This document shows, in pieces, positions 2,858-29,364 of a stretch of 31,383 nucleotides of DNA. The position numbers and the translations under genes are program-made. The DNA comes from a virus. How positions within the stretch are numbered: the first letter of the stretch is position 1; every line of letters begins with the position of its first letter. A model generated the notes under the pieces. The model ran no database searches. It was not told the DNA's origin and saw only the letters and a program-made list of their open reading frames with translations. Location of the stretch: positions 1-31,383 of the IMG/VR virus record IMGVR_UViG_3300010430_000326; one strand, written 5' to 3'.

Positions 2858-3019
2858 TCATCCACCTCCTGTCCGCGCGACCAACCACGCGAACGCCTCC
2901 GGGAACAGGTAGCCAGCGGCAAGCAGCATCACGACGAACGAGAGCGCCGCGCGGCAGTAACCATCGCGCATTCCCTTCCGGCGGGCTTCCTCCAGGTCCG
3001 GGCAGTAAACGCACTTCAT
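2858..3019 (-). CDS. small single-pass membrane protein with N-terminal CxxC
   Basis: The protein has 53 residues. The ATG at 3019 is preceded by GAGGAGG, and a longer frame from 3079 would run through the promoter. The N-terminus MKCVYCPDLEEARRKG holds one CxxC pair. A hydrophobic segment follows (ALSFVVMLLAAGYLFPEAFAW), long enough for one membrane span. It is the first gene of the leftward operon, about 50 bases after the predicted promoter. No family is recognised. Early phage operons often carry such small host-interaction proteins, but nothing here proves that role. Confidence 0.6.
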   Translation of the reverse strand: MKCVYCPDLEEARRKGMRDGYCRAALSFVVMLLAAGYLFPEAFAWLVARTGGG

Positions 3020-3070
3020 GTCGTCCTCCTCTCGATTGCACGCGGTTCGGCGTGATTGATGCCTGATCGA

Positions 3071-3099
3071 AAGATACACCTGTTACCTTTGGCTGTCAA
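3071..3099 (-). promoter_or_regulatory. leftward sigma-70 promoter
   Basis: Read on the minus strand, TTGACA (3099-3094) is followed after exactly 17 bases by TATCTT (3076-3071). It would drive the leftward recombination operon that starts at 3019. Its -35 box is one arm of a palindrome shared with the rightward promoter. Confidence 0.8.
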
Positions 3100-3109
3100 G
3101 CCCTTGACA
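3094..3109. promoter_or_regulatory. palindromic operator candidate spanning both -35 boxes
   Basis: TGTCAAG (3094-3100) and CTTGACA (3103-3109) form a perfect 7-bp inverted repeat around CC. Each arm contains one of the divergent -35 boxes, so a dimeric protein bound here would block both promoters. The palindrome may also be a by-product of two consensus -35 boxes back to back. Confidence 0.5.
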
Positions 3110-3132
3110 AAAAAAAGTTCCTCTGGTATCTT
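3104..3132 (+). promoter_or_regulatory. rightward sigma-70 promoter
   Basis: TTGACA at 3104-3109 and TATCTT at 3127-3132 are separated by 17 bases, with an A-rich spacer start. Both hexamers and the spacing match the leftward promoter exactly. The helix-turn-helix gene starts 38 bases downstream, at 3171. Confidence 0.82.
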
Positions 3133-3170
3133 TTCGGCTGAACCCGGCACCGGCATGAGGGAGAGAGCAC

Positions 3171-3383
3171 ATGGAACGAGCAAGAGAGATCATTCGCCTA
3201 CAGGAACGGCTGCGCATCTTGTACCGGGATCGGGAACGCGAGGCGTGGGAGTTGCGCAAGGAGGGCCTCCGGTGGGACGAGATCGGGCTGCGCATCGGCA
3301 CGTCGCGGATTATGGCGATGCGCTGCGCCGGGCGGTACGAGCAGAGAGCGGCAAATGGCGAAATCATCAGCGCTGCGGTCTGA
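3171..3383 (+). CDS. small helix-turn-helix DNA-binding protein, putative regulator
   Basis: The protein has 70 residues and starts after a GGGAGAGAG ribosome site. An Arg/Glu-rich helix occupies residues 1-25. A helix-turn-helix candidate follows at about 27-56 (ELRKEGLRWDEIGLRIGTS then RIMAMRCAGRYE); the pattern resembles sigma region 4 or a homeodomain-like recognition unit. It is the first gene after the rightward promoter and lies beside the palindrome that overlaps both early promoters. Autoregulation and control of the early switch are therefore plausible, but this is inferred from position and size. No repressor family is recognised. Confidence 0.6.
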   Translation: MERAREIIRLQERLRILYRDREREAWELRKEGLRWDEIGLRIGTSRIMAMRCAGRYEQRAANGEIISAAV

Positions 3384-3386
3384 TCC

Positions 3387-4184
3387 ATGGCCGCCCGCAA
3401 AACCTGGGCCCATTGGTACACCCACAAGGGCCGAAGGCACCGGCTGAAGCTCACCGAGGAAGAGTTGATGCAGGTGACCCTTTACGAGTGGGTGCAATAT
3501 CAACCCCCCCCAGTAGACCTCCTGCACCACGTGCCCAACGGTGGTGCGCGTGATCCGCGGACGGGCCTCAAGATGCTCGCCATGGGCACCCGGGCCGGCG
3601 TGCCCGATAATCACCTCCCGGTGGCCTCCCGAGGGTATACAGGTCTTTGGATCGAGCTCAAGCGGCCCAAGGGGGGCTCTTTGTCAGCCGCACAGAAGGA
3701 CTGGATCCGGCGCCTCGAGGCAGCGGGGAACCTCTGCCGGGTTTGCGTGACGTGGGAAGCGGCTGCCAACCTCGTTTGCTGGTATCTACACCGTCGGCCG
3801 CCCTTTCCGGCTGAACACAACAGCGAATATGCTGAAATGATCTTTCACGCAATGTCTAGAGAGCCACCGAAGAGGGGAATAACGACAATGCCTTCCAGCC
3901 ACAGCACCGACGCTGCGACTCGTCCGGTTGACACCGTGGTTATGCGCCTCGCTCATTTGCTGGCCTGCTATGAGGCGGACGAGCCGCATGTGTCCTCGCC
4001 AGGGTACGATTTCGGCACCGAAGAAGAGCAAAGCTACCAAGGCCCAACCTATGCTGCGCTGGCCGAATGGCAACAAATGGAACACCATGGTGACTGTGTA
4101 AAACAACCAACAACGTGCCTACGATGTTGGTCTGACCACCTTCTGCATAAAGCAAACTGGATCAGTCAGAGATTGGACGCATAA
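3387..4184 (+). CDS. VRR-NUC family nuclease with an extra C-terminal Cys/His domain
   Basis: The protein has 265 residues. Residues about 25-132 form a VRR-NUC (PD-(D/E)XK-like) nuclease: HVPNGGARD at 48-56, GVPD at 71-74, a WIELKRP strand with E90 and K92, then a Gln in SAAQKDW at about 103. Stand-alone phage VRR-NUC proteins usually end soon after this point. Here about 130 more residues follow, including HGDC and CLRC motifs near the end. The extra part lies in lower-GC DNA, and an internal ATG at 3888 follows GAGGGGAATAACGACA, so it may be a separate gene fused in frame. The stop lies inside an attC-like site. The start at 3387 has no clear ribosome site; ATG 3468 after GAGGAAGAG is an alternative. 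VRR-NUC nucleases cut structured DNA such as junctions. Confidence 0.75.
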   Translation: MAARKTWAHWYTHKGRRHRLKLTEEELMQVTLYEWVQYQPPPVDLLHHVPNGGARDPRTGLKMLAMGTRAGVPDNHLPVASRGYTGLWIELKRPKGGSLSAAQKDWIRRLEAAGNLCRVCVTWEAAANLVCWYLHRRPPFPAEHNSEYAEMIFHAMSREPPKRGITTMPSSHSTDAATRPVDTVVMRLAHLLACYEADEPHVSSPGYDFGTEEEQSYQGPTYAALAEWQQMEHHGDCVKQPTTCLRCWSDHLLHKANWISQRLDA

Positions 4185-4240
4185 CGGCAAGCATAACCGG
4201 CGCCGGTCTTATGGCGTCCGTGTTCATGCTCTGGTTCTAA
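4179..4240 (+). other. attC-like cassette recombination site 1
   Basis: GCATAAC (4179-4185) fits the R'' box consensus RYYYAAC in six of seven positions. AGCAT at 4190-4194 pairs with ATGCT at 4226-4230, as L''/L' arms would. The central 25 bases (4196-4220) are identical to 5355-5379. The right end, GTTCTAA, departs from GTTRRRY, so the right core is degenerate. The stop codon of the preceding gene lies inside the R'' box, as is usual for integron cassettes. Confidence 0.6.
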
Positions 4241-4279
4241 GGACTTTGCGCACGGCGCGAAGCGACACATGGTTTTGAC

Positions 4280-5074
4280 ATGGATGAATACCGAAACCGG
4301 ATCATCTGCGGCGATAACTGCGACGTCATGGGGCAGTTCCCACGAGGGTGCGTTGACCTCGTGGTCACGAGCCCACCCTACGACGGACTGCGAACCTACG
4401 GCGGGCACTCGTGGGACTTCTTTGGTGTAGCTTGGCAACTGAAACGGGTATTGAAGCCTGGCGGTGTGATTGTGTGGGTGGTGGCAGACCAGACCAAGGA
4501 CGGCAGCGAGACCGGCACGAGCATGGAGCAGGCGCTGCACTTCAAACGGCTAGGGCTGAACCTGCACGACACGATGATATATGCAACAGACAAGCCTCCG
4601 TTGACACACAACAGGTATGAACAGTCGTGGGAATACTGTTTCGTTTTGTCAAACGGAACGCCGAAAACATTCAACCCGATACTAAGGAGAACCAGGACGC
4701 GGGGGTCTTTGCCGGGGAAGTTCGTTCACAAAGCCACTGAAAACACGTATTCAGCGGCGCACAAACAAGCGCGGACAGGCGAAACAACAATGTTGCCCAA
4801 CTTGTGGTATTACACAAGCGGCATCGATGAGAACCAAACAAGAGGACACCCAGCACCTTTCCCTGTAGCACTAGCAAAAGACTTCGTGCAAACATGGAGC
4901 AACCCCGGAGACATAGTGTTAGACCCATTCAGTGGCAGCGGCACGACGCCGAAAGCCGCGAAGGAATTGGGCCGGAACTTCGTCGGGATTGAAGTGAACC
5001 CAGATTACTGCGCCATTTCAGAGCGGCGGCTGGCACAGGGAGTATTGCCGTTTGGTTTTGCGCAAAGTCTTTAG
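4280..5074 (+). CDS. DNA methyltransferase, beta-class motif order (N4-cytosine or N6-adenine)
   Basis: The protein has 264 residues. Catalytic motif IV, TSPPY, is at 30-34 and the AdoMet-binding motif, DPFSGSGTT, at 215-223. This order (IV before I) is that of beta-class amino-methyltransferases. The C-terminus continues with GRNFVGIEVNPDY. SPPY is commonest in N4-cytosine enzymes but is not exclusive, so the base is unresolved. The variable middle (about 130-200) would hold target recognition. No restriction gene lies beside it, so it is an orphan enzyme, probably protecting phage DNA from host restriction. It has no good ribosome site. It sits between attC-like sequences in lower-GC DNA, so it looks acquired as a cassette. 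Confidence 0.88.
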   Translation: MDEYRNRIICGDNCDVMGQFPRGCVDLVVTSPPYDGLRTYGGHSWDFFGVAWQLKRVLKPGGVIVWVVADQTKDGSETGTSMEQALHFKRLGLNLHDTMIYATDKPPLTHNRYEQSWEYCFVLSNGTPKTFNPILRRTRTRGSLPGKFVHKATENTYSAAHKQARTGETTMLPNLWYYTSGIDENQTRGHPAPFPVALAKDFVQTWSNPGDIVLDPFSGSGTTPKAAKELGRNFVGIEVNPDYCAISERRLAQGVLPFGFAQSL

Positions 5075-5095
5075 AACGCCCGGTGTAACCGGATT
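5071..5095 (+). other. left half of an attC-like site after the methyltransferase gene
   Basis: From 5075 the sequence AACGCCCGGTGTAACCGG matches 16 of 18 positions at the left end of the complete site at 5341. The methyltransferase stop TAG sits directly before AAC. No right-hand GTTRRRY core was found before the next gene, so the site is truncated or decayed. Confidence 0.45.
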
Positions 5096-5109
5096 TGCGG
5101 AGAGTTGCA

Positions 5110-5343
5110 ATGGAAGATAGGCAATGCGAAGAATGCTTGACCGATTTGAAAGTTTGCAAACACGCCACTGTAGCAAATTCCGAGTTGACACCGTTGTTAG
5201 CTTGCGATGGATGGTCAAAGGATCTCGGTTGCGATGGCACCGCTACAGTTTTCAAGCCAGGATACGGCAAGAAAAAATACTGTGAGCGGTGCGCCAACCG
5301 GCTCGAGGCTGCAAACCGGGAGTGGATATATTTGACAAGCTAA
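5110..5343 (+). CDS. small Cys-rich protein in a cassette, function unknown
   Basis: The protein has 77 residues. The ATG at 5110 follows GGAGAG; a TTG at 5095 is less likely. Metal-type Cys pairs are spread along it: CEEC near the start, a CKH, single Cys residues in the middle, and CERC near residue 60. It probably binds zinc. The stop TAA at 5341-5343 overlaps the R'' box of the best attC-like site. Base composition is lower in GC than the replication and structural genes. It is not recognised. Confidence 0.6.
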   Translation: MEDRQCEECLTDLKVCKHATVANSELTPLLACDGWSKDLGCDGTATVFKPGYGKKKYCERCANRLEAANREWIYLTS

Positions 5344-5399
5344 CGCCCGGTTTCACCGGCGCCGGTCTTATGGCGTCCGCGTGCAAACCGTTGTTAGGC
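5338..5399 (+). other. attC-like cassette recombination site 2 (most complete)
   Basis: AGCTAAC (5338-5344) is the R'' box, with one mismatch to RYYYAAC. CGGTTT (5348-5353) pairs with AAACCG (5385-5390) as L''/L'. GTTAGGC at 5393-5399 is a perfect GTTRRRY R' box. The inner part, with GGCGCC and GGCGTCC, extends the hairpin. Its 62-base length is within the known attC range. The centre (5355-5379) is identical over 25 bases to site 1. This is the main evidence for integron-type cassettes here. Confidence 0.7.
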
Positions 5400-5411
5400 G
5401 CAAAGGAGGCA

Positions 5412-5600
5412 ATGATGGGCGGGAAAATCCGAAGCACCAAGCTGACAAAAATTGAGCATCCATATTGCCTTGAGGCCGACGGGAAAAGGTTCACGGTGAA
5501 AATCGCAGATGACGGGTCACTACACGTTTTCACGGATAGACCGATCCGAATCTACCCTTACGGCCCCCAGACGATTGTTCTGCGGTTGAATGATTCATAG
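5412..5600 (+). CDS. small beta-rich protein in a cassette, function unknown
   Basis: The protein has 62 residues and starts MMGGKIRSTKLTKIEHPYC. The start at 5412 follows AAAGGAGG with ideal spacing; an upstream in-frame start at 5289 would run through the previous gene and the attC-like site. Alternating polar and hydrophobic residues (RFTVKIADDGSLHVF, then QTIVLRLND) suggest a small beta fold. The ribosome site lies only two bases after the GTTAGGC core, a typical cassette geometry. Another attC-like left half follows the stop. No function is recognised. Confidence 0.6.
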   Translation: MMGGKIRSTKLTKIEHPYCLEADGKRFTVKIADDGSLHVFTDRPIRIYPYGPQTIVLRLNDS

Positions 5601-5602
5601 GC

Positions 5603-5630
5603 GCATAACAGCCGCATATCACGACCGTGC
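5603..5630 (+). other. left half of an attC-like site after the last cassette gene
   Basis: GCATAAC (5603-5609) followed by GCATA (5613-5617) repeats the R''/L'' arrangement of site 1. No L'/R' partner is found before the next gene at 5659, so only a half-site remains. Confidence 0.35.
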
Positions 5631-5658
5631 AAGGTAGAGAGGCGAGAGGAGGACCGAG

Positions 5659-11115: not shown

Positions 11116-12559
11116 CCAGATAAAGAGCCGTCTGCGCGGGTGGCGCCGGAACCCAGTGGCTTTCGTTCACGAGATCTTCGGCGTGGAACCGGATGCCTGG
11201 CAGCGGGGGGCCCTCGAGGCCTCCATTGCCGGCGATGGCCCGGATCATCGTGTGGTCATGCGCGCCTGCACGGGGCCCGGGAAGTCGGCAGTCCTGGCCT
11301 GGATCGGTTGGCACCGGTTGTTTGCCTTCGGCGCCCCAGGGGAGCACCCGAAGGGCGCGGCCCTCTCCATCACCAAGGAAAACCTCAGCGACAACCTCTG
11401 GGCAGAACTCTCGAAGTGGCAGCAGCGCTCGGAGATCCTCAAATACGCTTTCACCTGGACCAAATCTCTCATCTACGCGAACGATCACCCTGAGACATGG
11501 TTCTTGTCCGCGCGTTCCTTCGCTCAGAATGCGGATCCCGAGGCGATCGGCCGCACCCTCTCCGGCCTCCATAGTCGCTTCCCGTTCATCCTCCTCGATG
11601 AGATTGGCGACATGCCGCGCCCCGTGGGGCGGGCCGCCGAGCAGATTTTCACCGGGGAACCCGAGGACGGACTGATCGCAGCAGCCGGGAACCCCACCGC
11701 AGTGGATGGTCTGCTATACGACATCGTCCAGAGGTTGCGGAGCGGTTGGCACACGATCACGATCACCGCAGACCCGGACGACGCGGAGCGCACCCCCCGG
11801 GTCTCCGTGGAGCACGCCCGCCGGCAGATCGATCTCTACGGACGGGACAACCCCTGGGTCATGGCGACGATCCTGGGGCAGTTCCCTCCCGGAGGATTCC
11901 AGAACCTGCTGAGCCTCGACGACGTCGAGCGGGCTATGAAACGTTTCTACCGGCCCGAAGACTACCGGCACGCACCCAAAATCATTGGCGTGGACGTGGC
12001 CCGGGAAGGCGACGACCAGAGCGTGATCTTTCGCCGTCAGGGCCTCCAGACCTGGGAACCGAAGAGCTTCCGCAACCTGAAGTCCCGCCAACTCTGCGGC
12101 CATGTGGCGCAGGGCGAGGACAACTGGGAAGCCGACGGTGTGATCGTGGACGGGACCGGCGGATACGGCGCCTCCCTCATCGATGCCCTCGAGGATCTCA
12201 ACCGGCACCCGTGGGACTGCCAGTTCGCCGGGAAGCCCGACAACCCGAAGTACTACAACAAGCGAGCAGAGATCTGGTACGAGATGGCGGAGTGGGTGCA
12301 GGATGGTGGGGCGCTCCCCGACGTCCCGGAGCTCCTCGAGGAGCTCACGCAGACCAAGTACTCGTTCAAGGGGGATAGGATCATCATCGAGCCCAAGGAC
12401 GAGCTGAAGAAGCGCATCGGGAGATCGCCGGATACGGCGGACGCCCTGGCGGTGACATTCGCCTTCCGCGTGACGCCGAAGGAGCCGGTAGTCCCGGCGG
12501 GCCTCCTGAAGAACCGCAGCAGAGCGGAGGCCTGGAGTCCCTATGAGTCGCTCGAATGA
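11102..12559 (+). CDS. terminase large subunit (packaging ATPase and nuclease)
   Basis: The protein has 485 residues. The ATPase has Walker A ACTGPGKS at 55-62 and Walker B FILLDE at 162-167; AGNPT at 195-199 may be the coupling motif. The RNase H-like nuclease has GVDVAREGDD with D298, VDGTGGYG with D350, and PDTADALAV with D447, the expected three acidic ligands. It pumps DNA into the prohead through the portal and cuts the concatemer. The start at 11102 is chosen over 11093 (one in-frame ATG earlier); both overlap the small subunit. Headful or cohesive-end type cannot be decided without phylogeny. Confidence 0.95.
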   Translation: MATLDQIKSRLRGWRRNPVAFVHEIFGVEPDAWQRGALEASIAGDGPDHRVVMRACTGPGKSAVLAWIGWHRLFAFGAPGEHPKGAALSITKENLSDNLWAELSKWQQRSEILKYAFTWTKSLIYANDHPETWFLSARSFAQNADPEAIGRTLSGLHSRFPFILLDEIGDMPRPVGRAAEQIFTGEPEDGLIAAAGNPTAVDGLLYDIVQRLRSGWHTITITADPDDAERTPRVSVEHARRQIDLYGRDNPWVMATILGQFPPGGFQNLLSLDDVERAMKRFYRPEDYRHAPKIIGVDVAREGDDQSVIFRRQGLQTWEPKSFRNLKSRQLCGHVAQGEDNWEADGVIVDGTGGYGASLIDALEDLNRHPWDCQFAGKPDNPKYYNKRAEIWYEMAEWVQDGGALPDVPELLEELTQTKYSFKGDRIIIEPKDELKKRIGRSPDTADALAVTFAFRVTPKEPVVPAGLLKNRSRAEAWSPYESLE

Positions 12560-13005
12560 AAATACGCGGTCTCCAGGACCGGGACATCCCCCAGGTGATC
12601 ACCCTCGGGGAGCTCTTCCACCAGGAGAGTCAGTACCGGGACTTGACCTTCGAGCCGGGAAAGATACTATCGCTTTGCGGAAAAGCACTCATGGATCCCA
12701 CCGAGTTGGGGCTCGTTGCGCTGGACCAGGAAGTGGTAGTGGGCATTCTCGGGGCCTACATCGGGCGCTACGAGTTCGGCCAGGACTTGCTGGCTTTCGA
12801 TCGAATCGTATATGTGCGTCCATCCTATCGCGGCTCGAGGGCCTTCGTGCGGATGGTCCGCGAGTACGTGCAGTGGGCGCGTAGCTGTGGGGTTAAGCAA
12901 ATCTTCCTCAGTCAGTCAACGGGACTCAAAACGGACCGGGTAAGCGGTCTCTTCCGCCGCTTGCGCTTCGAGCAGGTGGGCGGTGTATCCAGAATGAGGG
13001 TGTGA
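12556..13005 (+). CDS. GNAT-family acetyltransferase
   Basis: The protein has 149 residues. The ATG overlaps the terminase stop (ATGA). The GNAT layout is clear: an N-terminal strand and helix, VVVGILGAYIG as central strands, then VYVRPSYRGSRAFVRMV at about 85-101, where R-x-S-R replaces the usual acetyl-CoA loop Q/R-x-x-G-x-G/A. A Ser/Thr strand FLSQSTG and a C-terminal RLRFEQVGG (typical GF-like end) follow. Acetyltransferases beside terminase genes are frequent in podoviruses of this kind. The substrate is unknown. Confidence 0.75.
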   Translation: MKIRGLQDRDIPQVITLGELFHQESQYRDLTFEPGKILSLCGKALMDPTELGLVALDQEVVVGILGAYIGRYEFGQDLLAFDRIVYVRPSYRGSRAFVRMVREYVQWARSCGVKQIFLSQSTGLKTDRVSGLFRRLRFEQVGGVSRMRV

Positions 13006-14289: not shown

Positions 14290-14613
14290 ATGGCAATTAC
14301 AGACGTTCAGGCGATCGCTTTTTCAAACGAGCAGGTTCGGCCGGCAGCGGATGTTCTTGAAAGCGCCTACAACACGGCGAAACGGGTGCTCCAGGACTGG
14401 GCCTCTCAGGACATGGCGAGCCTGATCCCCAATGACGCCGGGGAACAACTGTTCGACGGGGCGGAAGCAGACGGACGACCGATCATCAACGGGGCCGACG
14501 TCCACAACATCATCAACCGGCTCACTGAACTTGTGACCGATTACGAGGCGGCGGGGTTCGCGAAGCTGAACACCATAACCGCAGTTGCCGTAAACGGAGA
14601 ATCGAGGGTCTAG
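14290..14613 (+). CDS. probable virion-associated protein
   Basis: The protein has 107 residues and starts MAITDVQAIAFSNEQVRPAA after AAAGGAGGAG. A helical first half is followed by IPNDAGEQLFDGAEADGRP and an INGADVHNIINRLTELV helix, ending KLNTITAVAVNGESRV. This arrangement is often seen in small proteins upstream of phage fibre genes, from memory only. The position just before the beta-helix protein supports a virion role. Confidence 0.5.
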   Translation: MAITDVQAIAFSNEQVRPAADVLESAYNTAKRVLQDWASQDMASLIPNDAGEQLFDGAEADGRPIINGADVHNIINRLTELVTDYEAAGFAKLNTITAVAVNGESRV

Positions 14614-14616
14614 GCA

Positions 14617-15732
14617 ATGGCCGAAGTATCCCCAGACTATTACATCTCGTCCGCAGCATCGGACGGGACAGGAAGCGGTACGTTCGGAGATCCCTACACA
14701 TTGGCGGATCTTTCGATTGTCGGGGGGGCCTACAAGGCCGTTGCCGCAAGTGACATCATTGCCGCGATTGCAGACGGGGACTACTCTCTGCCGGCCGCCA
14801 TGAACCTGACCGCAGGAGCACTTGCCGCGCCAACCATGATCCGCGGCTGTAAGTCTTCAGATGGTAGCTGGGACGCTACGGGGGCCACAAAGGCGGCAAT
14901 CGCCCTTGGTGGTTATTACGTAGGTCAAAATAATCATTATTGGACGTATGCAGATCTAGACTTCAAAGATCCAACGGTCAACACGAACCCGCACATAAGC
15001 CTAATTGGCGATTATGGTCTATTCTATAACTGCGGCGTTCGATATGGGAGCGGGACCTCCAGAACCACGGCATTAAATGCAGCGTCCGCTTCACAACACA
15101 ACCACATCGTTAGATGCTACTTTGAGGAGCTGGGACCTGTTCATCTGGACGGCAGTGACAACAAACTAATGTACTGTCACAGCAAGGACGCTATCAACAC
15201 CGCCGGGACACAGGGAGCGTTTTGGCTTCAAAATGACTGGTCAATGGCGTCCCACTGTATAGCAGAAGGCGGGGCCGGTTATGGGTTCCACGTGGACAAT
15301 TCCCTGTCTACGTCGACCTTTCACTGCCTGGCTCGAGGTATGGCGAGTCACGGGTTCTATTGGTCTGGGGTTTACGGTACCTCAAACATCGCCGCCGCCT
15401 GTATCGCCGCAGGGAACGGTGGTTATGGGTACAATAACGCCATGACGGCCAATGCCATGCCAAGCATGGTTGATTGTAATGCCTACAACAACACCAGCGG
15501 AGCGGTAAATGGAACGTTTCTTATCGGGGGAGTTGCGATTGATACGACCGACCCAGGTTTTGTCGGAGGCACACCCTACGACAACACGCCGCAAGCAGCG
15601 TTGCCGACGTTCGAGGCGTGGTTCCGGAACGTTGGAAGCGGAGCAAACATGATAGGGCCCATTAGCCCGGCTGGGGCCGGTGGCGGTAACGGCGGCGGTG
15701 GTGGAACCGGTGGGTTTTTTTGGATGAGCTGA
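14617..15732 (+). CDS. tail fibre/spike-like protein with right-handed beta-helix
   Basis: The protein has 371 residues. It begins with a short strand region and TFGDPYTLADL (the typical start of an extracellular beta-helix repeat). Between about 90 and 310 it shows repeated short strands with Asn/Gly turns (HIVRCYFEE, NKLMYCHSKD, SHCIAEGGAGYG, NIAAACIAAGNGG). The end is a Gly-rich run (AGGGNGGGGGTGG) before FFWMS. Similar folds act as receptor-binding or polysaccharide-degrading spikes. No catalytic residues are identifiable. The gene starts three bases after the previous stop. Confidence 0.6.
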   Translation: MAEVSPDYYISSAASDGTGSGTFGDPYTLADLSIVGGAYKAVAASDIIAAIADGDYSLPAAMNLTAGALAAPTMIRGCKSSDGSWDATGATKAAIALGGYYVGQNNHYWTYADLDFKDPTVNTNPHISLIGDYGLFYNCGVRYGSGTSRTTALNAASASQHNHIVRCYFEELGPVHLDGSDNKLMYCHSKDAINTAGTQGAFWLQNDWSMASHCIAEGGAGYGFHVDNSLSTSTFHCLARGMASHGFYWSGVYGTSNIAAACIAAGNGGYGYNNAMTANAMPSMVDCNAYNNTSGAVNGTFLIGGVAIDTTDPGFVGGTPYDNTPQAALPTFEAWFRNVGSGANMIGPISPAGAGGGNGGGGGTGGFFWMS

Positions 15733-15760
15733 CAACCATCCCCGCGAGGTGATTCTATAA

Positions 15761-16342
15761 ATGGCTGTCGTCCTTCTGGACAACTTCACCGACGCGAACG
15801 GGACTGCACTCCCGGATCACGATCCAGATACAGGAGACGCTGGCTCGTGGAGCGGCCCATCTGTCGGCGATACGATCCAAAACAACCGGTTCGAAGCCAA
15901 TGCGCAATATAATAACAGCACAGATCCACAGAACGCAGATCACTCGGTCAAGGCCACGATCGTTGCAACGGCTACGAACTTTGATGCCGCAGTAGTCGGC
16001 GGGCGATGGGCTTCGGGAGGGCAAAACGGTTACATCTTGGAATTAACGAATGGGGTAGCCGATAGCTCGCTGATTTTGTACGGAGATGGGCAATTAGATA
16101 CTCATACATTCACTAGGCTTACGAATGGACAGGTGGTCGAAATTGAACTCAGGATGGCTGGGGAATCGATCCAAGGGTACCTTGACGGCCAGCTAGTCGT
16201 ATCGGCAACCGACTCTGGATCGCCTGCAACAGGAAACGCCTATATTGACGGAGCGGGATTCGAGTTCGATCAGTTTTCTGTGGAAGCATCTCTGCCCTCG
16301 GGGATCTGGTATTGGGAGATACACGGGTTGCCCATATTATGA
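15761..16342 (+). CDS. receptor/tail protein with LamG-like jelly-roll domain (copy 1)
   Basis: The protein has 193 residues. GAGGTGATTC precedes the start. The domain has the concanavalin/LamG pattern: LLDNFTDANGTALPDH at the N-terminus, an NNRFEANAQ strand, VVEIELRMAGESIQGYLDGQ and an FEFDQFSVEA end. These jelly rolls bind carbohydrates. The DNA for residues about 7-176 is repeated with the same spacing in the large gene at 16791. It is overlapped by the next gene (ATGA). Confidence 0.6.
   Translation: MAVVLLDNFTDANGTALPDHDPDTGDAGSWSGPSVGDTIQNNRFEANAQYNNSTDPQNADHSVKATIVATATNFDAAVVGGRWASGGQNGYILELTNGVADSSLILYGDGQLDTHTFTRLTNGQVVEIELRMAGESIQGYLDGQLVVSATDSGSPATGNAYIDGAGFEFDQFSVEASLPSGIWYWEIHGLPIL
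15779..16288 (+). repeat. 510-bp intragenic duplication, copy 1
   Basis: This segment aligns without gaps to 16872-17381, at a constant offset of 1093 bases, with long identical runs. It encodes the LamG-like domain, so a receptor-binding domain was duplicated and has since diverged. Confidence 0.8.
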
Positions 16343-16794
16343 ATAGCCGACGAGAACGAATCACACCCACGACAGAGCAGGACTTCGGACAGGACGAGCG
16401 TCGTGGACGAACCTTGCGATTAGCCCTGGAGGACCACACGCATGGGACGCCAGGCGAGCAGGCCGTTCTTGACGTTGTTCAGCCGTCGCTCGACGACAAA
16501 GCCGATATCGACCATGGGCACCTCACAGTACGTATCGTCATCGCGAATTACACGATTACGACCGACGACCGGACGATTCTTGCAGATGCGACGGCGGGGC
16601 CGATCACAATCGAACTCCCGGCACCAGCGAATTCCGGACCCTACTACGTCAAGAAAATCGACTCGACGGTGAATCATGTAACGATTGCGACCCCCGGCAG
16701 CGAGACTGTCGACGGTGCCGCGAGCTTTGCCCTTGAATGCGAGGCCGAAAGTGTGCGGCTTGAGCCTGATGGTAGCGATTGGTTCATCCTATGA
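16339..16794 (+). CDS. probable tail/fibre accessory protein
   Basis: The protein has 151 residues. The ATG at 16339 overlaps the previous stop (ATGA); a TTG at 16312 is an alternative. The N-terminal third is charged (QDERRGRTLRLALEDHTHGT, with an HGT turn). The C-terminal half (ITTDDRTILADATAGPITIE, then YVKKIDSTVNHVTIAT) is the strand-rich module ending in PDGSDWFIL that is common in phage tail fibres and baseplate proteins. A connector between the fibre modules is plausible. Confidence 0.5.
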   Translation: MNSRRERITPTTEQDFGQDERRGRTLRLALEDHTHGTPGEQAVLDVVQPSLDDKADIDHGHLTVRIVIANYTITTDDRTILADATAGPITIELPAPANSGPYYVKKIDSTVNHVTIATPGSETVDGAASFALECEAESVRLEPDGSDWFIL

Positions 16795-19052
16795 CTGAGC
16801 TCCGAAAACTCAAAGGCGAGATTTCCACTCTCAACTCCAGTTCGACACCCCTCGGGGTTGTCTTTATTTTAGATAACTTCACGGACGCGAACGGGACTGC
16901 ACTCCCGGATCACGATCCAGACACAGGAGACGCAGGCTCCTGGAGTGGCCCCGCAGTCGGCGATACGATCCAGAACAACCGATTCGAAGCCAACGCACAA
17001 TACAATAACAGCACAGATCCACAGAACGCAGATTACTCAGTCAAGGCCACGATCGTTGCAACGGCTACGAACTTTGATGCCGCAATAGTCGCCGGCAGGT
17101 GGGTTTCGGGAGGGCAAAACGGTTACAGCATAGAGTTAACGAATGGAATATCCGACAGCTCACTCATCTTGAGTGGAGGGGGACAACTAGATAGCCATAC
17201 ATTCACGAAACTGACAAATGGACAGGTGGTCGAAATTGAGCTCAGGATGTCCGGGACGTCCATCAGTGGGTTCCTGGATGGGCAGGAGGTCGTGTCGGCA
17301 GTCGATTCCGCGTCGCCCGCAACAGGCAACGCGTATATTGACGGAGCGGGATTCGAGTTCGATCAGTTTTCTGTGGAAGCACCTGGCGTATTCACCGGCA
17401 CGGCAGAGGACATGACGGACTGGGGCGTGCTCGAGATCTCAGTGTATTCCGACGTGGCATCCGCTACGGATGGCCTATCGATTCAGCAGTCGTCAGACGG
17501 GACGAACTGGGACCACACGGACGAGTACACCGTTCCGGCCGCAACCGGAAAGAACTACAGCATTCAGCGGATCGCGCAGTGGTTCCGAATCGTGTACACG
17601 AACGGGGGAGGAGCCCAATCGGTCTTCAGGCTCCAAACCATCAAGAACCAGTTCTACATCAAGCCGTCAAGCCACCGTGTGCAGGACAACATCGCCACCG
17701 ACGATGATGCGGAGCTTTCCAAGGCAGTCCTCTCCATCGATTCGGGAGACGGCCAAACATTAAAAAATTTGAACGCTCAGCATCCTCTGACGATTTCATC
17801 GGACTCGGTCTTCGAAGCGGATATCGACCAGGACAACAGCAGCTCAAGCGGGTTCACGGGCGGCACTGCCATTGACCTGTTCAATGACCGAACCACGACC
17901 ATTATTAATTCAACGGCGTCCAACCCGAAAACGATTGTCGTCGAGCTAAAAAGGCCAGTCCAAACGAACATTCTCGGGTTTTCCGCCGCCTCGGGGAACT
18001 TCAGCAACACGAAGATCGTGGCAAGGGTGGGGCAGGGCGCAGACGCCATTGACACGACGCTGATTGACGAGAGCGCCGACGCCACGGATAAAACGCTGCT
18101 CATTCCGCAGTTCGCCCCAGCGACATTCAGTAGACTCACGATCACGTTCTCGACAGCCGACGCCGTATCTCTGAGCACGATCGGAATATCAAAGGCACTA
18201 CAAAGAATCGCAAGGCTCCAGGGGATCAGCCCGTCCAATGTCATCAAGAACGTGTCCGTTACCGAGGACGGGTATCTCTCGATCAGCGACCAAAGCAGTG
18301 GGCTTTCGATCGCCATCGGAAACGTAACCAAGACAACGTTCATCCATAAATTCGGTGCGGCGCCAAACTTCGACACCGGCGACGGAGTCGTAGCTGTATG
18401 GGACGGAGCCGATGACGCTAACATAGACCAGATGGTTTACCAGTATTCGTCCACCGACGACATTGATTCCATCTCGAGTTCGAACGCAGGAGACACACAA
18501 GACATTGAAATACTAGGACTAGATGTTAACTTTGATGTCGTAACGCAAACAAGAACATTGAGCGGACAAACACGGGTCGCGCTCAGCACAGACCTCTTGC
18601 GCGTTTTTCGAATGAAAAACGTTGGCACAACAGACAACGCAGGGCACGTTTACTGCTATGTCAACGGAGCCATAACGGCGGGAGTACCAGACACGCCGGC
18701 AGACGTGAGAGCGGTTATCCAGCCAGGAAACAACCAGACGTTAATGGCGATTTATACGATCCCGGACGGCAAAACAGGATATATGCGAGATTGGTTTGCC
18801 GCCCTCGGAGGAGCAAGCAGGTCGGCAAATTATACGATAGAGTTGAGAGCCAGACCTACCGGGCAAGTTTTTCAGCTAAAACACTTGTCAGCGATAGCAG
18901 AAGAGGGAAGCTCGACGATTAAGCACGATTACGTAGAGCCAGAAGTTTTCGCAGCCCGGACAGACATAGAAATGCGGGTATCCATCGCGACCGGTGCAAT
19001 AACAGCGGCGTCCATCGCGGCAGGTTTTGATTTGGTTCTGATCGATGATTAA
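16791..19052 (+). CDS. large multi-domain tail fibre/receptor protein
   Basis: The protein has 753 residues and overlaps the previous gene by four bases. Residues about 25-200 are a second LamG-like domain nearly identical to the gene at 15761. Later parts show strand-rich modules: TDGLSIQQSSDGTNWDHTDE, then a discoidin-like segment (SNTKIVARVGQGADAIDTTL), then a C-terminal beta sandwich ending IAAGFDLVLIDD. Domain duplication and length point to a host-recognition fibre. No enzymatic motif is visible. The start at 16791 has a weak ribosome site and depends on coupling. Confidence 0.6.
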   Translation: MTELRKLKGEISTLNSSSTPLGVVFILDNFTDANGTALPDHDPDTGDAGSWSGPAVGDTIQNNRFEANAQYNNSTDPQNADYSVKATIVATATNFDAAIVAGRWVSGGQNGYSIELTNGISDSSLILSGGGQLDSHTFTKLTNGQVVEIELRMSGTSISGFLDGQEVVSAVDSASPATGNAYIDGAGFEFDQFSVEAPGVFTGTAEDMTDWGVLEISVYSDVASATDGLSIQQSSDGTNWDHTDEYTVPAATGKNYSIQRIAQWFRIVYTNGGGAQSVFRLQTIKNQFYIKPSSHRVQDNIATDDDAELSKAVLSIDSGDGQTLKNLNAQHPLTISSDSVFEADIDQDNSSSSGFTGGTAIDLFNDRTTTIINSTASNPKTIVVELKRPVQTNILGFSAASGNFSNTKIVARVGQGADAIDTTLIDESADATDKTLLIPQFAPATFSRLTITFSTADAVSLSTIGISKALQRIARLQGISPSNVIKNVSVTEDGYLSISDQSSGLSIAIGNVTKTTFIHKFGAAPNFDTGDGVVAVWDGADDANIDQMVYQYSSTDDIDSISSSNAGDTQDIEILGLDVNFDVVTQTRTLSGQTRVALSTDLLRVFRMKNVGTTDNAGHVYCYVNGAITAGVPDTPADVRAVIQPGNNQTLMAIYTIPDGKTGYMRDWFAALGGASRSANYTIELRARPTGQVFQLKHLSAIAEEGSSTIKHDYVEPEVFAARTDIEMRVSIATGAITAASIAAGFDLVLIDD
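16872..17381 (+). repeat. 510-bp intragenic duplication, copy 2
   Basis: Second copy of the LamG-domain DNA (see 15779-16288). No indels separate the copies. Confidence 0.8.
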
Positions 19053-19083
19053 GGAGAAACCCTGACGCAATAAGGAGCAGATA

Positions 19084-19455
19084 ATGAGCATTGATTATCA
19101 GTCCACAAAAGCTCTTGGGGGGACGGGAGGAGCCAGTCTCCGCGCTGTAGCAACGCTCACGAGCGACGGGTCGGGGGATGCCGCTCAGGCCTTTCCTCTT
19201 ACCGGTTGGATCGTGAAGGTCGTGACGAATCCCGATGGTAGTGCCGCGCCAACCGCAGACTGGGACCTGACGATTGTCGACGAGGATGCGTTGGACATCC
19301 TCGCGGCCGCCGGCGCGGACCGACACACCAGCAATAGCGAATTGTGCGCACTCCCGAACAACAATCCAATCTGGGTTGATGGCATCATCACGGTCACGGG
19401 TGCCAACATGGGAGACACAAAAACCGCAGTCGTGCGTATCTATGTGAAACTCTAA
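19084..19455 (+). CDS. probable virion protein, beta-rich
   Basis: The protein has 123 residues and starts MSIDYQSTKALGGTGGASLR after AAGGAGCAGATA. Beta strands (WIVKVVTNPDGS, DWDLTIVDEDALDILAAAGA, DGIITVTGANMGD, AVVRIYVKL) fill most of it; the layout resembles a small jelly-roll or decoration protein. Position between fibre and portal genes suggests a particle component. Not specifically recognised. Confidence 0.5.
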   Translation: MSIDYQSTKALGGTGGASLRAVATLTSDGSGDAAQAFPLTGWIVKVVTNPDGSAAPTADWDLTIVDEDALDILAAAGADRHTSNSELCALPNNNPIWVDGIITVTGANMGDTKTAVVRIYVKL

Positions 19456-19471
19456 CCAAAGGAGAAATGCC

Positions 19472-20002
19472 ATGAAACGAATCAGAACTCTCGTGCTCGC
19501 AATCCTGTTTGCGCTCAGCACCTCGCTAGCGTTGGGCGTCAATTTCGGCGACAGAGTCACCTTCGAGGGGCCGGTAACGCTCGAAGGCGCGACGACGATC
19601 ACCGGGGCCTTGCTCGTATCCACGGAGATTGTAACCGCAGCCAACACGATCACCGCCGCAGAGTGCGGAACCACCTACTACCTGAACTCGGCGACAGAAT
19701 TTGCGAGCACTTTGCCCGCGATCTCCACCGTTTCGGCAGGCTGCGTATTCCGCTTCGTCATCAAAGCGGCGGCCGCCTCGGCCAACTACACGGTGCTCAC
19801 GGGGAATTCCCTGGAAAACCTAGTGTATGGCTCGATGGAAGTGGCCGGCGCCGTCATTGCGTGTGCCCAGGAGGACACGATTACCCTGGTGGATGGGAAC
19901 GCCATCGGGGATTGGGTGGAGCTCGAGAGCGATGGAGTTCTCTGGTATATCTCCGGCTCGACGGTGACCACCGCAAAGGCGACCTGCACCCAGGCTGATT
20001 GA
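19472..20002 (+). CDS. secreted/virion-associated protein with signal peptide
   Basis: The protein has 176 residues. Residues 1-22 (RIRTLVLAILFALSTSLALG) form a signal peptide, which is unusual for a virion protein. Strand-rich mature part: FGDRVTFEGPVTLEGATTI, AAECGTTYYLNSATEFAST, GVLWYISGSTVTTAKA. It carries the short repeats seen in fibre modules. AAGGAGAAATGCC precedes the ATG. It may coat the cell surface or be exported late. Function unknown. Confidence 0.5.
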   Translation: MKRIRTLVLAILFALSTSLALGVNFGDRVTFEGPVTLEGATTITGALLVSTEIVTAANTITAAECGTTYYLNSATEFASTLPAISTVSAGCVFRFVIKAAAASANYTVLTGNSLENLVYGSMEVAGAVIACAQEDTITLVDGNAIGDWVELESDGVLWYISGSTVTTAKATCTQAD

Positions 20003-20017
20003 TCAACGGAGCCCCCT

Positions 20018-21721
20018 ATGCCTGACGAAGAGCGCCGGCGGGACGATGGCCGCCTCGCCCAGAAGGAGGCGGTCATCAAGCTCGTGACGACGCGCCAGAA
20101 GAAGCTGGAGAGCGACCGTACGCAGTGGGACGACCAACTCCAGGACGTCGCCGACTACGTCTGCCCGCACCGCGACGACATCCGCGGCACGTATACGAAG
20201 GGCCAGCAACAAGGCGACAAGCTCTACGACGGTACGGCAGTCTCTGCGGCAGTCCTCGCGACGGACGGCATCCACGGCTATCACGTCTCACCGGCGTTCC
20301 CCTGGTTCCGATACGAGATGAACCGGAAGGACGTGAACCGGATCCCCGAGGTCCGAGAGTGGCTCCAGGAGTTGGAGTGGTTGGTCTATGGGGCGCTCAA
20401 CCGCTCCAATTTCTACGGGGAAATGTGGCCGTACATCTACGACGGCTTCAGTCTGGGAACGGCTTCTCTGTTCCCCGAGGAGGATCTCGGCCAGGGACGA
20501 ATCGTCTTTGAAGCCGTGCATCCGGGAGAGGCGTACATCGCCGAGAACAAGTTCGGCGAGGTCGATGTTTACCACCGCAAACGGAAGCTGACCGCGCGCC
20601 AGATCGTGCAGCGCTTCGGCGATGCCGTCCCCGAAGAGGTGCGCAACGTAGAGAAACATCAGCCATTCCAGGAGTATGAAGTCCTCCACGCGATCTACCC
20701 GCGGGAGGACTACAACGACTCGAAGATGGATGCCGCGAACAAGAGGTACGCGTCCTGTTGGCTCCTATCGAAGGGCAACGCCCTCCTCGGTGTTTCAGGC
20801 TTCGACCGATTCCCTTACTCCGTCTGGAGGTACATGAGAAGCGGGAAGGACGCCTACGGGAGGAGCCCTGCACACTTGGCCATGTCCGACATCAAGGGCC
20901 TGCAGGTCATGGGGAAGACCCTCCTGGGAGCGGCCCAGCTCGCCGTAGACCCGGCCTACAACGTGCCCGAGTACCTTGAGGGGAAGGTCCAGCTCAAGCC
21001 CCGCGGCCTCAACTACGTTCGCAGCGGCGACAACATCACCGCAGTGAATGATCCCCGTGGATTTCCGATTGGTCTCGACCGCGAGCAGGCCAAGCAGCAG
21101 TCCATTCGGGAGCGGTTCCACGTCGATACGTTCCTTCTCCTGACCCAGCTCGCGAACCAGGGTGGGCAGCGTACGGCCACCGAGGTCATCGAGTTAACCG
21201 CGGAGAAGGCCGCGATCCTCGGCGCGGAACTCGGCCCACTGAACTCGGAGCTCGACAAGATCCTCGACCAGGTCTATTCCATTGAGGACGAGGCGGGGCG
21301 CCTCCCGGGGCCACCGGACATCCTGCTGGAGTTGGCGGATCTGGATCCTAACCTTCGCTTCGATCCGGTCTACCTCGGTCCCCTTGCGCAGGCGCAGCGG
21401 GAGCGATTCAGCCGGGATTGGGTTACCAAGTTCATGGTCCAAATCGGCCCGGTAGCGGAGATCCAGCCGGGAGTCCTGGAGAACTTCGACCTCGACGCCG
21501 CCGTGCGGGAGATCGCCGAGAACATCAACATGCCGGCGGAAGCCCTGCGGCCAATGCGCGACGTGCAGCGATTCCGCGAGCAGAAGGCCCAGGCCATGCA
21601 GGCAGAGCAGCAGAAGCAGGACCTGGAGCGCCTGGCGGCGGCCGGCAAGGACGTGGCGGCCCTCGACAGGGAGGGCACCCTGGTCGACTCGATCATGGGA
21701 CAAGTGAATGCACCGGCTTGA
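20018..21721 (+). CDS. head-tail connector (T7-type portal) protein
   Basis: The protein has 567 residues. Typical T7-like portal features: QWDDQLQDVADYVCPHRDDI near the start, GTAVSAAVLATDGIHGYHVSP, then PWFRYEM (about 96-102), GTASLFPEED at about 150, and a Gln/Glu-rich helical C-terminus (QAEQQKQDLERLAAAGKD). Twelve copies would form the ring at the capsid vertex through which DNA is packaged and ejected. Length fits the family. Its neighbours (terminase upstream, scaffold and capsid downstream) agree. Confidence 0.93.
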   Translation: MPDEERRRDDGRLAQKEAVIKLVTTRQKKLESDRTQWDDQLQDVADYVCPHRDDIRGTYTKGQQQGDKLYDGTAVSAAVLATDGIHGYHVSPAFPWFRYEMNRKDVNRIPEVREWLQELEWLVYGALNRSNFYGEMWPYIYDGFSLGTASLFPEEDLGQGRIVFEAVHPGEAYIAENKFGEVDVYHRKRKLTARQIVQRFGDAVPEEVRNVEKHQPFQEYEVLHAIYPREDYNDSKMDAANKRYASCWLLSKGNALLGVSGFDRFPYSVWRYMRSGKDAYGRSPAHLAMSDIKGLQVMGKTLLGAAQLAVDPAYNVPEYLEGKVQLKPRGLNYVRSGDNITAVNDPRGFPIGLDREQAKQQSIRERFHVDTFLLLTQLANQGGQRTATEVIELTAEKAAILGAELGPLNSELDKILDQVYSIEDEAGRLPGPPDILLELADLDPNLRFDPVYLGPLAQAQRERFSRDWVTKFMVQIGPVAEIQPGVLENFDLDAAVREIAENINMPAEALRPMRDVQRFREQKAQAMQAEQQKQDLERLAAAGKDVAALDREGTLVDSIMGQVNAPA

Positions 21722-21980
21722 TACGTTTCCCGACGAGACGCTGATCGGGCAGTATCGCACGGTCTTCTCCTCCCGCTCGGGCCTCGATGTCCTGGGGCAC
21801 ATGCTCTGGGATCTCGGCGTATTCCAGCAGATCAGCGACGGCGCGGAGGATGTAGCGCTCAAGAACTACGGACTCCGCCTGGTGTCGATCCTGGCCGGCG
21901 GAGAGGTCGCGGCAGGGAGTCTGCACGCGTTTCTCGAAGCCGCCATGCGACAGCCAGTTAGCAGGGGAGGCACGGAGTGA
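21708..21980 (+). CDS. Bbp19-like small virion protein
   Basis: The protein has 90 residues. The ATG overlaps the portal gene by 14 bases. The arrangement (FPDETLIGQYRTVFSSRSGL, then VLGHMLWDLGVFQQIS, then KNYGLRLVSILAGG) is that of the small Bbp19-type protein beside portal genes in Bordetella BPP-1-like podoviruses. Its exact role (connector adaptor or assembly) is not known to me. Confidence 0.6.
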   Translation: MHRLDTFPDETLIGQYRTVFSSRSGLDVLGHMLWDLGVFQQISDGAEDVALKNYGLRLVSILAGGEVAAGSLHAFLEAAMRQPVSRGGTE

Positions 21981-22198
21981 TAAAGCCACGAATGGTCTTG
22001 GTCCACCCAACCCAGCAGCACCTGGCGGTGGAAATGTGGGTGGAGGGATCGGAACTGCGGTATTGGGCGGCGGATGGCGTGCTCTCGCCCCAACTACGGG
22101 CCGCACTCCAACAGTTAAAGCCGCATCTCGTTCGTGTTTTGCATTTGGCCGATCAGTCCATGTCCAGATCGGCGACCGACAGTAACATTCTGACATGA
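21977..22198 (+). CDS. small protein resembling a TubC N-terminal docking domain
   Basis: The protein has 73 residues with a GTG start overlapping the previous stop (GTGA); GGGGAGGC lies before it. The core (EMWVEGSELRYWAADGVLSP, then LRAALQQLKPHLVRVLH) fits the TubC docking pattern: a strand-turn-strand and A-A/L-x-P helix. Such docking domains also occur in phage primases. Here it stands alone between a connector gene and the scaffold. A protein-protein adaptor in head assembly is a guess. Confidence 0.45.
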   Translation: MIKPRMVLVHPTQQHLAVEMWVEGSELRYWAADGVLSPQLRAALQQLKPHLVRVLHLADQSMSRSATDSNILT

Positions 22199-22229
22199 AA
22201 CCGGAAACCATCGATTCAGGAGAAAGACC

Positions 22230-22985
22230 ATGTCTGACGAAGCCGGGACCGACTTAGCGGGCGAAGGCGGGGACGCTGGTGGTGGTGAGGATCGTGGATG
22301 GTTGAGCAGCATTCCCGAAAACCTGCGTGAGCACGAGGCGATCAAAGGTGCGGAGTCCCTGACGGACATCTACACCGGATTCGCCGAGCTCTCGGACAGG
22401 TCCAGGGATTCGCTGTCGATACCGGGCGACGATGCCACCGACGAGGACCGGGCCGCGTTCTACCAGCGGCTCGGGCGCCCGGAAGCCGCGGAGCAGTACG
22501 ACTTCACGAAACCGGAGTTGCCGGATGGCATCCCTTACGACGAAGCGGTCGAGGGGGCGTTCAAGGAGATCGGGTTCAAGCACGGTCTCTCTCAGGAACA
22601 GGCCGCCGGCCTTCACGCGTGGTACTGGTCCACGGTGAAAGCGGGCGCAGAAGAGCAGCAGCAGAAGACGGAAGCGGAGGTCAACAAGCTCAAGTCCGAA
22701 GACTGGAAGGGGGACGCGTTCGCGGAGAACTCGGAACGCGCCCGCCGAGCGTTCGAGAGGTTCGACAACGGCGACAAGGAAGCAGCGGGAGAGTTCCTCG
22801 CCAAAACGGTGGACGGCATCGCAATCGGAGACCATCCGCGATTCCTGAAGCTATTCGCGGCAGTCGGTGCGGCGATCTCGGATGACACGATGACCGGGGA
22901 CCGCTCGCACTCCCTCGACGCGATCCAGTCGGCAGACGCCCAAGCCAAAAAACGCTTCCCCAACACAAAATGGAATGACGGCTAA
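22230..22985 (+). CDS. capsid scaffolding protein
   Basis: The protein has 251 residues. It is acidic with Gly-rich start (AGTDLAGEGGDAGGGEDR), then long helices (EAVEGAFKEIGFKHGLSQEQ, KTEAEVNKLKSEDW, ERARRAFERFDN). The layout (acidic N-terminus, helical body, basic end KKRFPNTKW) and position directly before the major capsid gene are those of T7-like scaffolds. The ribosome site AGGAGAAAGACC precedes the ATG. No protease domain is visible. Confidence 0.8.
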   Translation: MSDEAGTDLAGEGGDAGGGEDRGWLSSIPENLREHEAIKGAESLTDIYTGFAELSDRSRDSLSIPGDDATDEDRAAFYQRLGRPEAAEQYDFTKPELPDGIPYDEAVEGAFKEIGFKHGLSQEQAAGLHAWYWSTVKAGAEEQQQKTEAEVNKLKSEDWKGDAFAENSERARRAFERFDNGDKEAAGEFLAKTVDGIAIGDHPRFLKLFAAVGAAISDDTMTGDRSHSLDAIQSADAQAKKRFPNTKWNDG

Positions 22986-22998
22986 AGGAGAGACATAG

Positions 22999-23976
22999 AT
23001 GGCGACCCTTACGAGTCAATACAGCCTGGTCGAACAGGCCAAAAGGATCGATCCCGACGGCGACCAGGCCAAGATTGTCGAGGTCCTGAACCGTCGAATG
23101 GGGGGCATCCTGCAGGAAGCCCCGTGGATTCCCTCGAACGACGTCTGGACGAACAAGACCACCCGCCGGGGCACCCTGCCCACGGGATCCAGGCGCAAAT
23201 TGAATCAGCGTGTCAGTCAATCCGTGAGCAGGACCACCGAGATCATGGACGTCATCGAGCAGTTGGAGGACTACTGCGACGTCGATGCCGCCCTGGTGGA
23301 TTCGATGCCGAGCGCGGCCATGTTCCGTTCCCAGGAGGTCGACGCCTTCATCGAGGGCCTGGGGCAGACGATCGCCTCGGACATCCTCTACGCCGACGCC
23401 AACGCGGATCCCGACTCCATGCACGGTCTGGCGGCCCGCATGGGCACCCTGGACGGCCGTTTCGTGATCGGCGAGGGAGGCACTGGGAGCGACGTCACGT
23501 CCATTTTCGTGGTCACCTGGGGCCCGGAGTGGGCGCACCTGATCTACCCGAAAAATATGGCCGCCGAGATGGGCGTGCGTCATGTCGACAAGGGGCAGGT
23601 CACCTCGGAGACGACCAACGGTTTGATCGAGGTCTACCGAGACCATTTCTGCATTCGGGTGGGGATGGTGGTCAGGCATCCTCGGGCGATCGGGCGACTT
23701 GCGAATATCGAGTCCGCTGGCACGAGCAATACCTTCGACGAGGACAACCTGATCACCCTGATCAACAACATGGAGACGGGCCCCGGAACGAGGATCTACT
23801 GCAACGAGACGGTTCTCACGCAGATGCAGATCCGGGCAAAGGACAAGAACAACATCAACTACTACATGGACTCGTCCTTCGCCCTGTCCGGTCAGCCGCC
23901 GCTGGCGTTCCAGGGGACCCCGGTGCGCCGGTTTGATCGCGAGATCTTGCTGAACACGGAGAGCGCGATCAGCTAA
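22999..23976 (+). CDS. major capsid protein (HK97 fold expected)
   Basis: The protein has 325 residues. AAAGGAGAGACAT precedes the ATG. It begins MATLTSQYSLVEQAKRIDPD, has an extended arm (WTNKTTRRGTLPTGSRRKLN), a spine helix region (EAFIEGLGQTI-type at about 115) and typical late strands (VVTWGPEWAHLIYPKNMAAE, then CIRVGMVVRHPRAIGRL). It resembles podovirus major capsid proteins of the BPP-1 group. Position after the scaffold supports it. Confidence 0.85.
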   Translation: MATLTSQYSLVEQAKRIDPDGDQAKIVEVLNRRMGGILQEAPWIPSNDVWTNKTTRRGTLPTGSRRKLNQRVSQSVSRTTEIMDVIEQLEDYCDVDAALVDSMPSAAMFRSQEVDAFIEGLGQTIASDILYADANADPDSMHGLAARMGTLDGRFVIGEGGTGSDVTSIFVVTWGPEWAHLIYPKNMAAEMGVRHVDKGQVTSETTNGLIEVYRDHFCIRVGMVVRHPRAIGRLANIESAGTSNTFDEDNLITLINNMETGPGTRIYCNETVLTQMQIRAKDKNNINYYMDSSFALSGQPPLAFQGTPVRRFDREILLNTESAIS

Positions 23977-24034
23977 TCCATTCGCCGCCGAGCGCTCAAC
24001 GTATTGAACACGGCACAATAGAAGGAGACAACAC

Positions 24035-24505: not shown

Positions 24506-24534
24506 GCGGGACGAACCCCGGGAGGGGTAGAAAG

Positions 24535-24556
24535 GAGGGGGCCTCCGGGCCCCCTC
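24535..24556 (+). terminator. strong GC hairpin after head genes, no T-tract
   Basis: GAGGGGGC (24535-24542) and GCCCCCTC (24549-24556) pair around CTCCGG. It could set a ratio of head to tail transcripts by pausing or RNA stability. The following gene starts 14 bases later. Confidence 0.45.
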
Positions 24557-24569
24557 TGGGGAGGCGATC

Positions 24570-24743: not shown

Positions 24744-24745
24744 CC

Positions 24746-25180: not shown

Positions 25181-25353
25181 TGAGCGGGAAACGAGCCAGG
25201 GCTTTGCGCGGGCAATTCCGAGTGGAGGTCCGTGCGCCGGCGTATGAGGCGGGAAGCCCAGCATATGCTGGCCCGGGGCGTGCCCGGTATCGTCAGGCCA
25301 AGAAATATTGGGCGAGCACACATGGTCCCGGGACAACCGGACGAGGTAGGTGA
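25180..25353 (+). CDS. small basic hypothetical protein
   Basis: The protein has 57 residues. The ATG overlaps the previous TGA by one base (TGATG) with GGAGGTGGG upstream, and its own TGA overlaps the next ATG the same way. It is rich in Arg, Gly and Ala (MSGKRARALRGQFRVEVRAP, then ARYRQAKKYWASTHGPG). It may bind nucleic acid; no function is recognised. Confidence 0.5.
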   Translation: MSGKRARALRGQFRVEVRAPAYEAGSPAYAGPGRARYRQAKKYWASTHGPGTTGRGR

Positions 25354-28904: not shown

Positions 28905-28905
28905 G

Positions 28906-29352: not shown

Positions 29353-29364
29353 TCAGAGGGAACC

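Follow-up and report, generated by a model that had tools for sequence, protein, structure and literature searches.

Genes and Features of the Locus

The stretch of DNA analysed here, referred to as the window, comprises all 31,383 bases of IMG/VR virus record IMGVR_UViG_3300010430_000326, which derives from a podovirus in environmental DNA. Its genes, as assigned by PHROG, include a head–tail connector or portal protein (332), a major head protein (212), and a tail protein (376), together with replication proteins; the closest annotated relatives of the portal are found in Pelagibacter phages, at approximately 35% identity. A second contig (L012) is 99.95% identical to window positions 14511–31351, indicating that this phage has been assembled twice, and ends short of the array described below. 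Comparison of the two also brought out a 510-base direct repeat in the late region (15779–16288 and 16872–17381, 85% identity), and a phage acetyltransferase (PHROG 1249) is encoded at 12556–13005, close to the structural genes. The features of the array and its border are as follows, with arrows marking putative cut points:

3387–3828, +, VRR-NUC nuclease gene, the phage's own, bordering the array (Pfam VRR_NUC; PHROG 824 to residue 147)
3922–3945, +, half attC site with R box GTTATGC and a right arm that repeats those of attC2 and attC3 (direct repeat D2)
4179–4240, +, attC1 (31.8 bits, E 2e-5); the + strand carries the bottom-strand sequence
4185–5076, +, putative mobile unit of attC1 and methyltransferase (bounded by GCATAA↓C and TTAGAA↓C, on the model of the exact junctions of relatives)
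4280–5074, +, N6/N4 DNA methyltransferase, cassette cargo (Pfam N6_N4_Mtase, E 5e-40; relatives in phage attC arrays)
5071–5202, +, attC2, with a long variable terminal part (24.6 bits, E 8e-4; L arms CGGTGT and ACACCG)
5077–5343, +, putative mobile unit of attC2 and a short open reading frame (ORF; bounded by TTAGAA↓C and AGCTAA↓C)
5110–5343, +, small Cys-rich ORF of uncertain coding status (stop inside R box AGCTAAC)
5338–5399, +, attC3, the most complete site (52.0 bits, E 5.5e-10)
5344–5608, +, putative mobile unit of attC3 and a small gene (bounded by AGCTAA↓C and GCATAA↓C)
5412–5600, +, ORF for a small protein of 62 aa with AGGAGG upstream, cassette cargo of unknown function
5603–5609, +, terminal R box GCATAAC, from the sequence (no model match and no attC beyond it)

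The ORF of the VRR-NUC gene extends to 4184, and the viral relatives of its product have 145 and 171 aa; we infer that the native 3' end lies at 3828. The first-pass annotation had listed four successive genes ending at attC-like sites, the first of which (ORF 3387–4184) is this nuclease gene read through into the first cassette. It had also named a methyltransferase as cassette cargo in a phage, which holds for this record without intI; the enzyme probably modifies the phage DNA against host restriction. Cys-rich cargo, as likewise proposed, is not established: the ORF at 5110–5343 crosses attC2, matches no family, and has no relatives in viral contigs. The 62-aa protein matched no family and had no relatives, and the seed made of the two small cassette proteins retrieved none. 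The GC content of 3922–5608 is 0.538 compared with 0.623 in the left and 0.602 in the right flank, so the stretch does differ from both sides as initially noted.

The attC Sites of the Window

To interrogate the sites, we built and calibrated a covariance model from 25 attC sites of arrays in intI-bearing Gammaproteobacteria, aligned in bottom-strand orientation, and scanned the window with filters off; the E-values are rough. Three complete sites were found, all on the + strand and all within 1.3 kb, and the next-best match in the window scored 13.9 bits (E 0.22); a model of the type that the first-pass annotation had suggested as a check thus recognizes its sites. A hand-made scan for R and L boxes was unable to tell attC1 and attC2 from chance matches, and the covariance model took its place. 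The first-pass positions of the stops, the R boxes, the L arms, and the 25-base repeat all hold. For two of the boxes the reading has changed: TTAGAAC, of which only the start of a site had been seen, opens a full attC of 132 nt (box at 5071–5077) whose right end, ACACCG TT GTTAGCT, is at 5202, and GCATAAC at 5603 is present as an R box, with no attC following. An earlier reading of this right end as a cut-off attC4 was replaced by that of a terminal R box followed by phage DNA, which places the probable right-hand junction between array and phage DNA at 5608/5609. At the other, eroded end the half site at 3922–3945 has lost its left half; its R box is complementary to GCATAAC at 4179–4185. 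Neither an empty site nor a close relative of this phage lacking the array came to light.

All three sites are predicted to fold in a common way, their unpaired single bases being located on the same arm; the L arms vary from site to site yet remain complementary. The sites thus show the R''–L''...L'–R' inverted repeats, unpaired spacer, and extrahelical bases of bacterial attC. No integron integrase was found in the record with the TIGR02249 profile, confirming the reported lack of intI, and the array is a cluster of attC sites lacking an integrase (CALIN), not a complete integron. The window sites had no match in Rfam, and scans of viral contigs for the exact 26 bases and for the arm pattern of the window attC returned nothing. 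The arm pattern is present in one gammaproteobacterial MAG with two intI genes. Nucleotide searches gave nothing for attC1 against phages and two weak partial matches for attC3 against plasmids.

Cassette Units and R-Box Pairing

A free cassette requires its R'' to fold onto its R'. In the window, the boxes bounding one unit pair far better than the two boxes of one site: GTTATGC/GCATAAC, GTTCTAA/TTAGAAC, and GTTAGCT/AGCTAAC each match at 7/7 positions, and GTTAGGC/GCATAAC, bounding the attC3 unit, at 6/7. The fully complementary boxes of the attC2 unit lie at 5196–5202 and 5338–5344, and the pair GTTCTAA/TTAGAAC of the methyltransferase unit is contained in a 19-nt inverted repeat (4234–4252 and 5059–5077, 95%). 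The same holds more widely. Among 66 phage units, a match at all four variable positions was seen for 68% of own-unit pairs, 22% of pairs within sites, and 12% of random pairs, and the values for 95 reference units (bacterial arrays plus the phages TJE1 and Va p16) were 86%, 13%, and 7%, respectively. R' and R'' of one cassette are therefore complementary, as is the case for attC, and we read this own-unit pairing as the trace of circular cassettes.

Polarity of the Sites Relative to the Genes

In a normal cassette, gene and attC top strand share one direction, and it is an extrahelical G in L'' that singles out the bottom strand for recombination; this strand discrimination has been described as essential to expression from the integron platform (PMC2727003). 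Unlike canonical gene cassettes, the three window sites and the phage set carry the bottom strand on the gene strand: the model represents the bottom strand and, both in the window and among its relatives, matches the coding strand. Of the phage-set ORFs ending at an R box, 41 lie on the bottom strand (inverted) and 9 on the top strand (normal), compared with 8 and 38 in the references, which are mainly of one bacterial class; it should be noted that such ORF counts are noisy at this GC content. The attC sites are thus inverted on the evidence of their sequences, with the recombinogenic bottom strand as the coding strand, and each mobile unit reads attC and then gene on the phage sense strand. 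The R'', L'', L', and R' labels of the first-pass annotation have to be reversed. The inversion, which it missed, is a more surprising fact than the array itself.

The arrays near methyltransferase relatives are inverted, and with an RNA-ligase seed 46/46 attC matches were inverted, in 9/80 loci; two of the nine are contigs that the methyltransferase set also contains, and three are near-identical. A broader scan of viral contigs for attC patterns, small in size, yielded 18 loci and points in the same direction as the main polarity counts, one normal array included: L216, L218, and L229 have their Pfam-recognised genes inverted and L224 has them in normal polarity, whereas the raw ORF counts (48 to 25) are noisy, antisense ORFs being common at this GC content. 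An outer-membrane-protein gene lies on the top strand in L217, which may be host DNA. With the normal array of L224 (4766–5929), which includes a WDGH-domain gene, viral contigs show both polarities; most of the seeds used were phage genes.

Sharing of Cassettes between Unrelated Phages

Of 21 contigs bearing a relative of the methyltransferase, 17 carry attC sites at E ≤ 1e-3, and as two pairs are near-identical these represent 15 distinct contigs; in one (G207) the attC site lies far from the methyltransferase. The structural genes of these contigs differ (L104, portal PHROG 156 and head PHROG 283; L115, portal 1216; L113, portal 145; L119, portal 332 and tail 376), and further phage markers comprise a lambda-J-type tail protein (L106), a tape-measure protein (L103), and a tail protein (L105). 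By these gene contents, several unrelated types of phage are represented among the contigs tested. DNA similarity among the nonduplicate contigs is mostly in the methyltransferase cassettes. L077, L079, L082, L083, L084, and L087 have common sequence up to GTATAAC and diverge immediately beyond it, and in the closest pairs the common sequence extends back as far as the left R box of the attC upstream; as the shared DNA spans the left R box to GTATAAC, what is exchanged, read on the gene strand, consists of attC and the gene after it. The junction GTATAA↓C reads G↓TTATAC on the opposite strand, which is the integrase cut expected if polarity is inverted. The methyltransferase of the window, on which its tie to the shared pool rests, has approximately 75–83% DNA identity to its cassette relatives, confined to the gene, and the exact junctions are consequently those of the relatives and not of the window.

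These breaks bear on the reading of the repeats as phage hairpins, such as intergenic transcription terminators, that merely resemble attC and never involved an integrase. The hairpins do lie between genes read in the same direction, and attC sites themselves are thought to contain weak terminators, as stated in PMC9892861. Terminators, however, predict neither the gap of more than 10 bits by which a model of bacterial attC sets the sites above the rest of the window, nor R boxes that pair with the far end of their own unit rather than within the hairpin, nor the break of homology at the R box in different phages, and we consider this explanation extremely improbable.

The cassettes carry further cargo, including C5 and MT-A70 methyltransferases, a DUF5131 protein, and a PAPS-reductase-like protein. 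In L079, one cassette gene (622–984) has a subthreshold match to the Acb2/Tad1 hairpin domain and is a possible anti-defence sponge, and the methyltransferases of two adjoining cassettes (2153–2893 and 2989–3762) begin with related sequence, one of the two being rearranged or truncated, as if a cassette had been duplicated. A 40-kb phage contig (G208) has three separate attC arrays, on both strands (L115 2823–4388; L116 5100–9815 and 18694–19916).

Outside the arrays, the isolate Idiomarinaceae phage 1N2-2 encodes a related methyltransferase in an ordinary operon without attC, so that the cassette form is not simply a stable phage arrangement; genes and repeats held as stable noncassette DNA, the outcome named at first pass as counting against cassettes, are not what this homologue presents. 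Similarly, 71/80 RNA-ligase loci are without attC. In a limited sample of 369 gammaproteobacterial genomes, the methyltransferase had two matches at E ≤ 1e-50, with 40–43% identity, and the RNA ligase none at E ≤ 1e-30. Given the ordinary operon of 1N2-2, the ligase loci without attC, and the scarce gammaproteobacterial matches, the data fit phage genes turned into cassettes.

Comparison with Known Arrays

Phage arrays of attC cassettes have been known since 2023, when Qi et al. (PMC9892861) reported CALINs in phages, some with methyltransferases, including Tetrasphaera TJE1, Pseudoalteromonas H101/PH101, and others, and five of six phage attC sites tested there recombined with attI1 through IntI1. 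The array of the window, presented at first pass as a notable rarity, is real but belongs to this published kind: like the CALINs reported there, it has attC sites without intI, and several of those also carry DNA methyltransferases. TJE1 has normal polarity, unlike the window, whereas the H101 array (L124 25919–27987) is inverted relative to its own genes, like the window. We did not find this inversion discussed in the main text of PMC9892861, nor did we find cassettes common to unrelated phages with exact junctions described there. What appears new is the inverted, phage-shared variant, of which no account was found in the open-access papers covered. The sedentary chromosomal integrons of Gammaproteobacteria share the attC fold and the own-unit R-box pairing with the window; they encode an integrase (TIGR02249) and have their genes with the top strand, whereas the window has no integrase and the bottom strand is the one along which its genes are read. 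Vibrio anguillarum phage Va_90-11-286_p16 also has an attC array in a phage record but, unlike the window, an integrase gene beside it and normal polarity.

The array might alternatively be an inert piece of a host chromosomal integron, caught by illegitimate recombination from an unsampled lineage in which the inversion is ordinary. The left end of the array is cut within a site, Vibrio phage p16 shows that phages are able to take up host integron pieces, the arm pattern recurs in the MAG with two intI genes, and the reference covers mainly one bacterial class. This origin nevertheless seems unlikely to us in view of the same inverted cassettes in unrelated phages with exact R-box junctions, the distant or missing relatives of methyltransferase and ligase in the sampled gammaproteobacterial genomes, and the opposite polarity of the reference arrays.

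Proposed Mechanism

Taken together, 3922–5608 is most probably a small integrase-less cassette array (CALIN) in a podovirus, with inverted sites, that forms part of an inverted set common to unrelated phages and is moved by integron integrase in trans. Cutting and joining of the cassettes would take place at G↓TTRRRY on the minus strand. The TIGR02249 profile found no match above its cut-off in 20 records; as no record tested has an integron integrase above this cut-off, host IntI acting in trans would be the simplest agent, and the acting integrase is most likely the host's. A phage-encoded tyrosine recombinase could in principle move the inverted cassettes instead, and 6/21 contigs do encode a tyrosine integrase, several of them within approximately 3 kb of an array; we regard this as very improbable, since none of these integrases reaches the integron-integrase cut-off, they look by sequence like ordinary, mutually dissimilar phage integrases, and the remaining 15/21 contigs, many of which are fragments, show none.

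The genes would be read from phage promoters and not from the integron Pc promoter. Through the inversion, the coding strand is also the recombinogenic one and, wherever genes follow the replication fork, forms the lagging-strand template; inverting the Vibrio cholerae array, with that strand on the lagging-strand template, greatly raised cassette excision (PMC11023631). It is a matter of speculation whether the phage arrays were selected for such a placement; alternatively, a founding inverted pool may have spread, with later cassettes forced to match.

Implications for Phage Biology

Clusters of attC sites in phages were formerly known from few genomes, where they might be taken for strays from bacterial integrons. 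If unrelated phages do exchange back-to-front cassettes at exact junctions of the integrase type, they exploit integron chemistry to swap genes among themselves. The cargo (three methyltransferase families, an RNA ligase, a DUF5131 protein, and a weak Acb2/Tad1-like match) fits counter-defence. More tentatively, and somewhat short of an even chance in our estimate, unrelated phages may share a private pool of cassettes with genes antisense to attC, highly recombinogenic for any host integrase during infection, through which counter-defence genes are swapped. Such cassettes would be silent once caught by a host integron, and their coding strand would also be the strand displaced by transcription. 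The finding makes testable the question of whether a host integron integrase moves phage genes during infection, and whether strand polarity sets the frequency.
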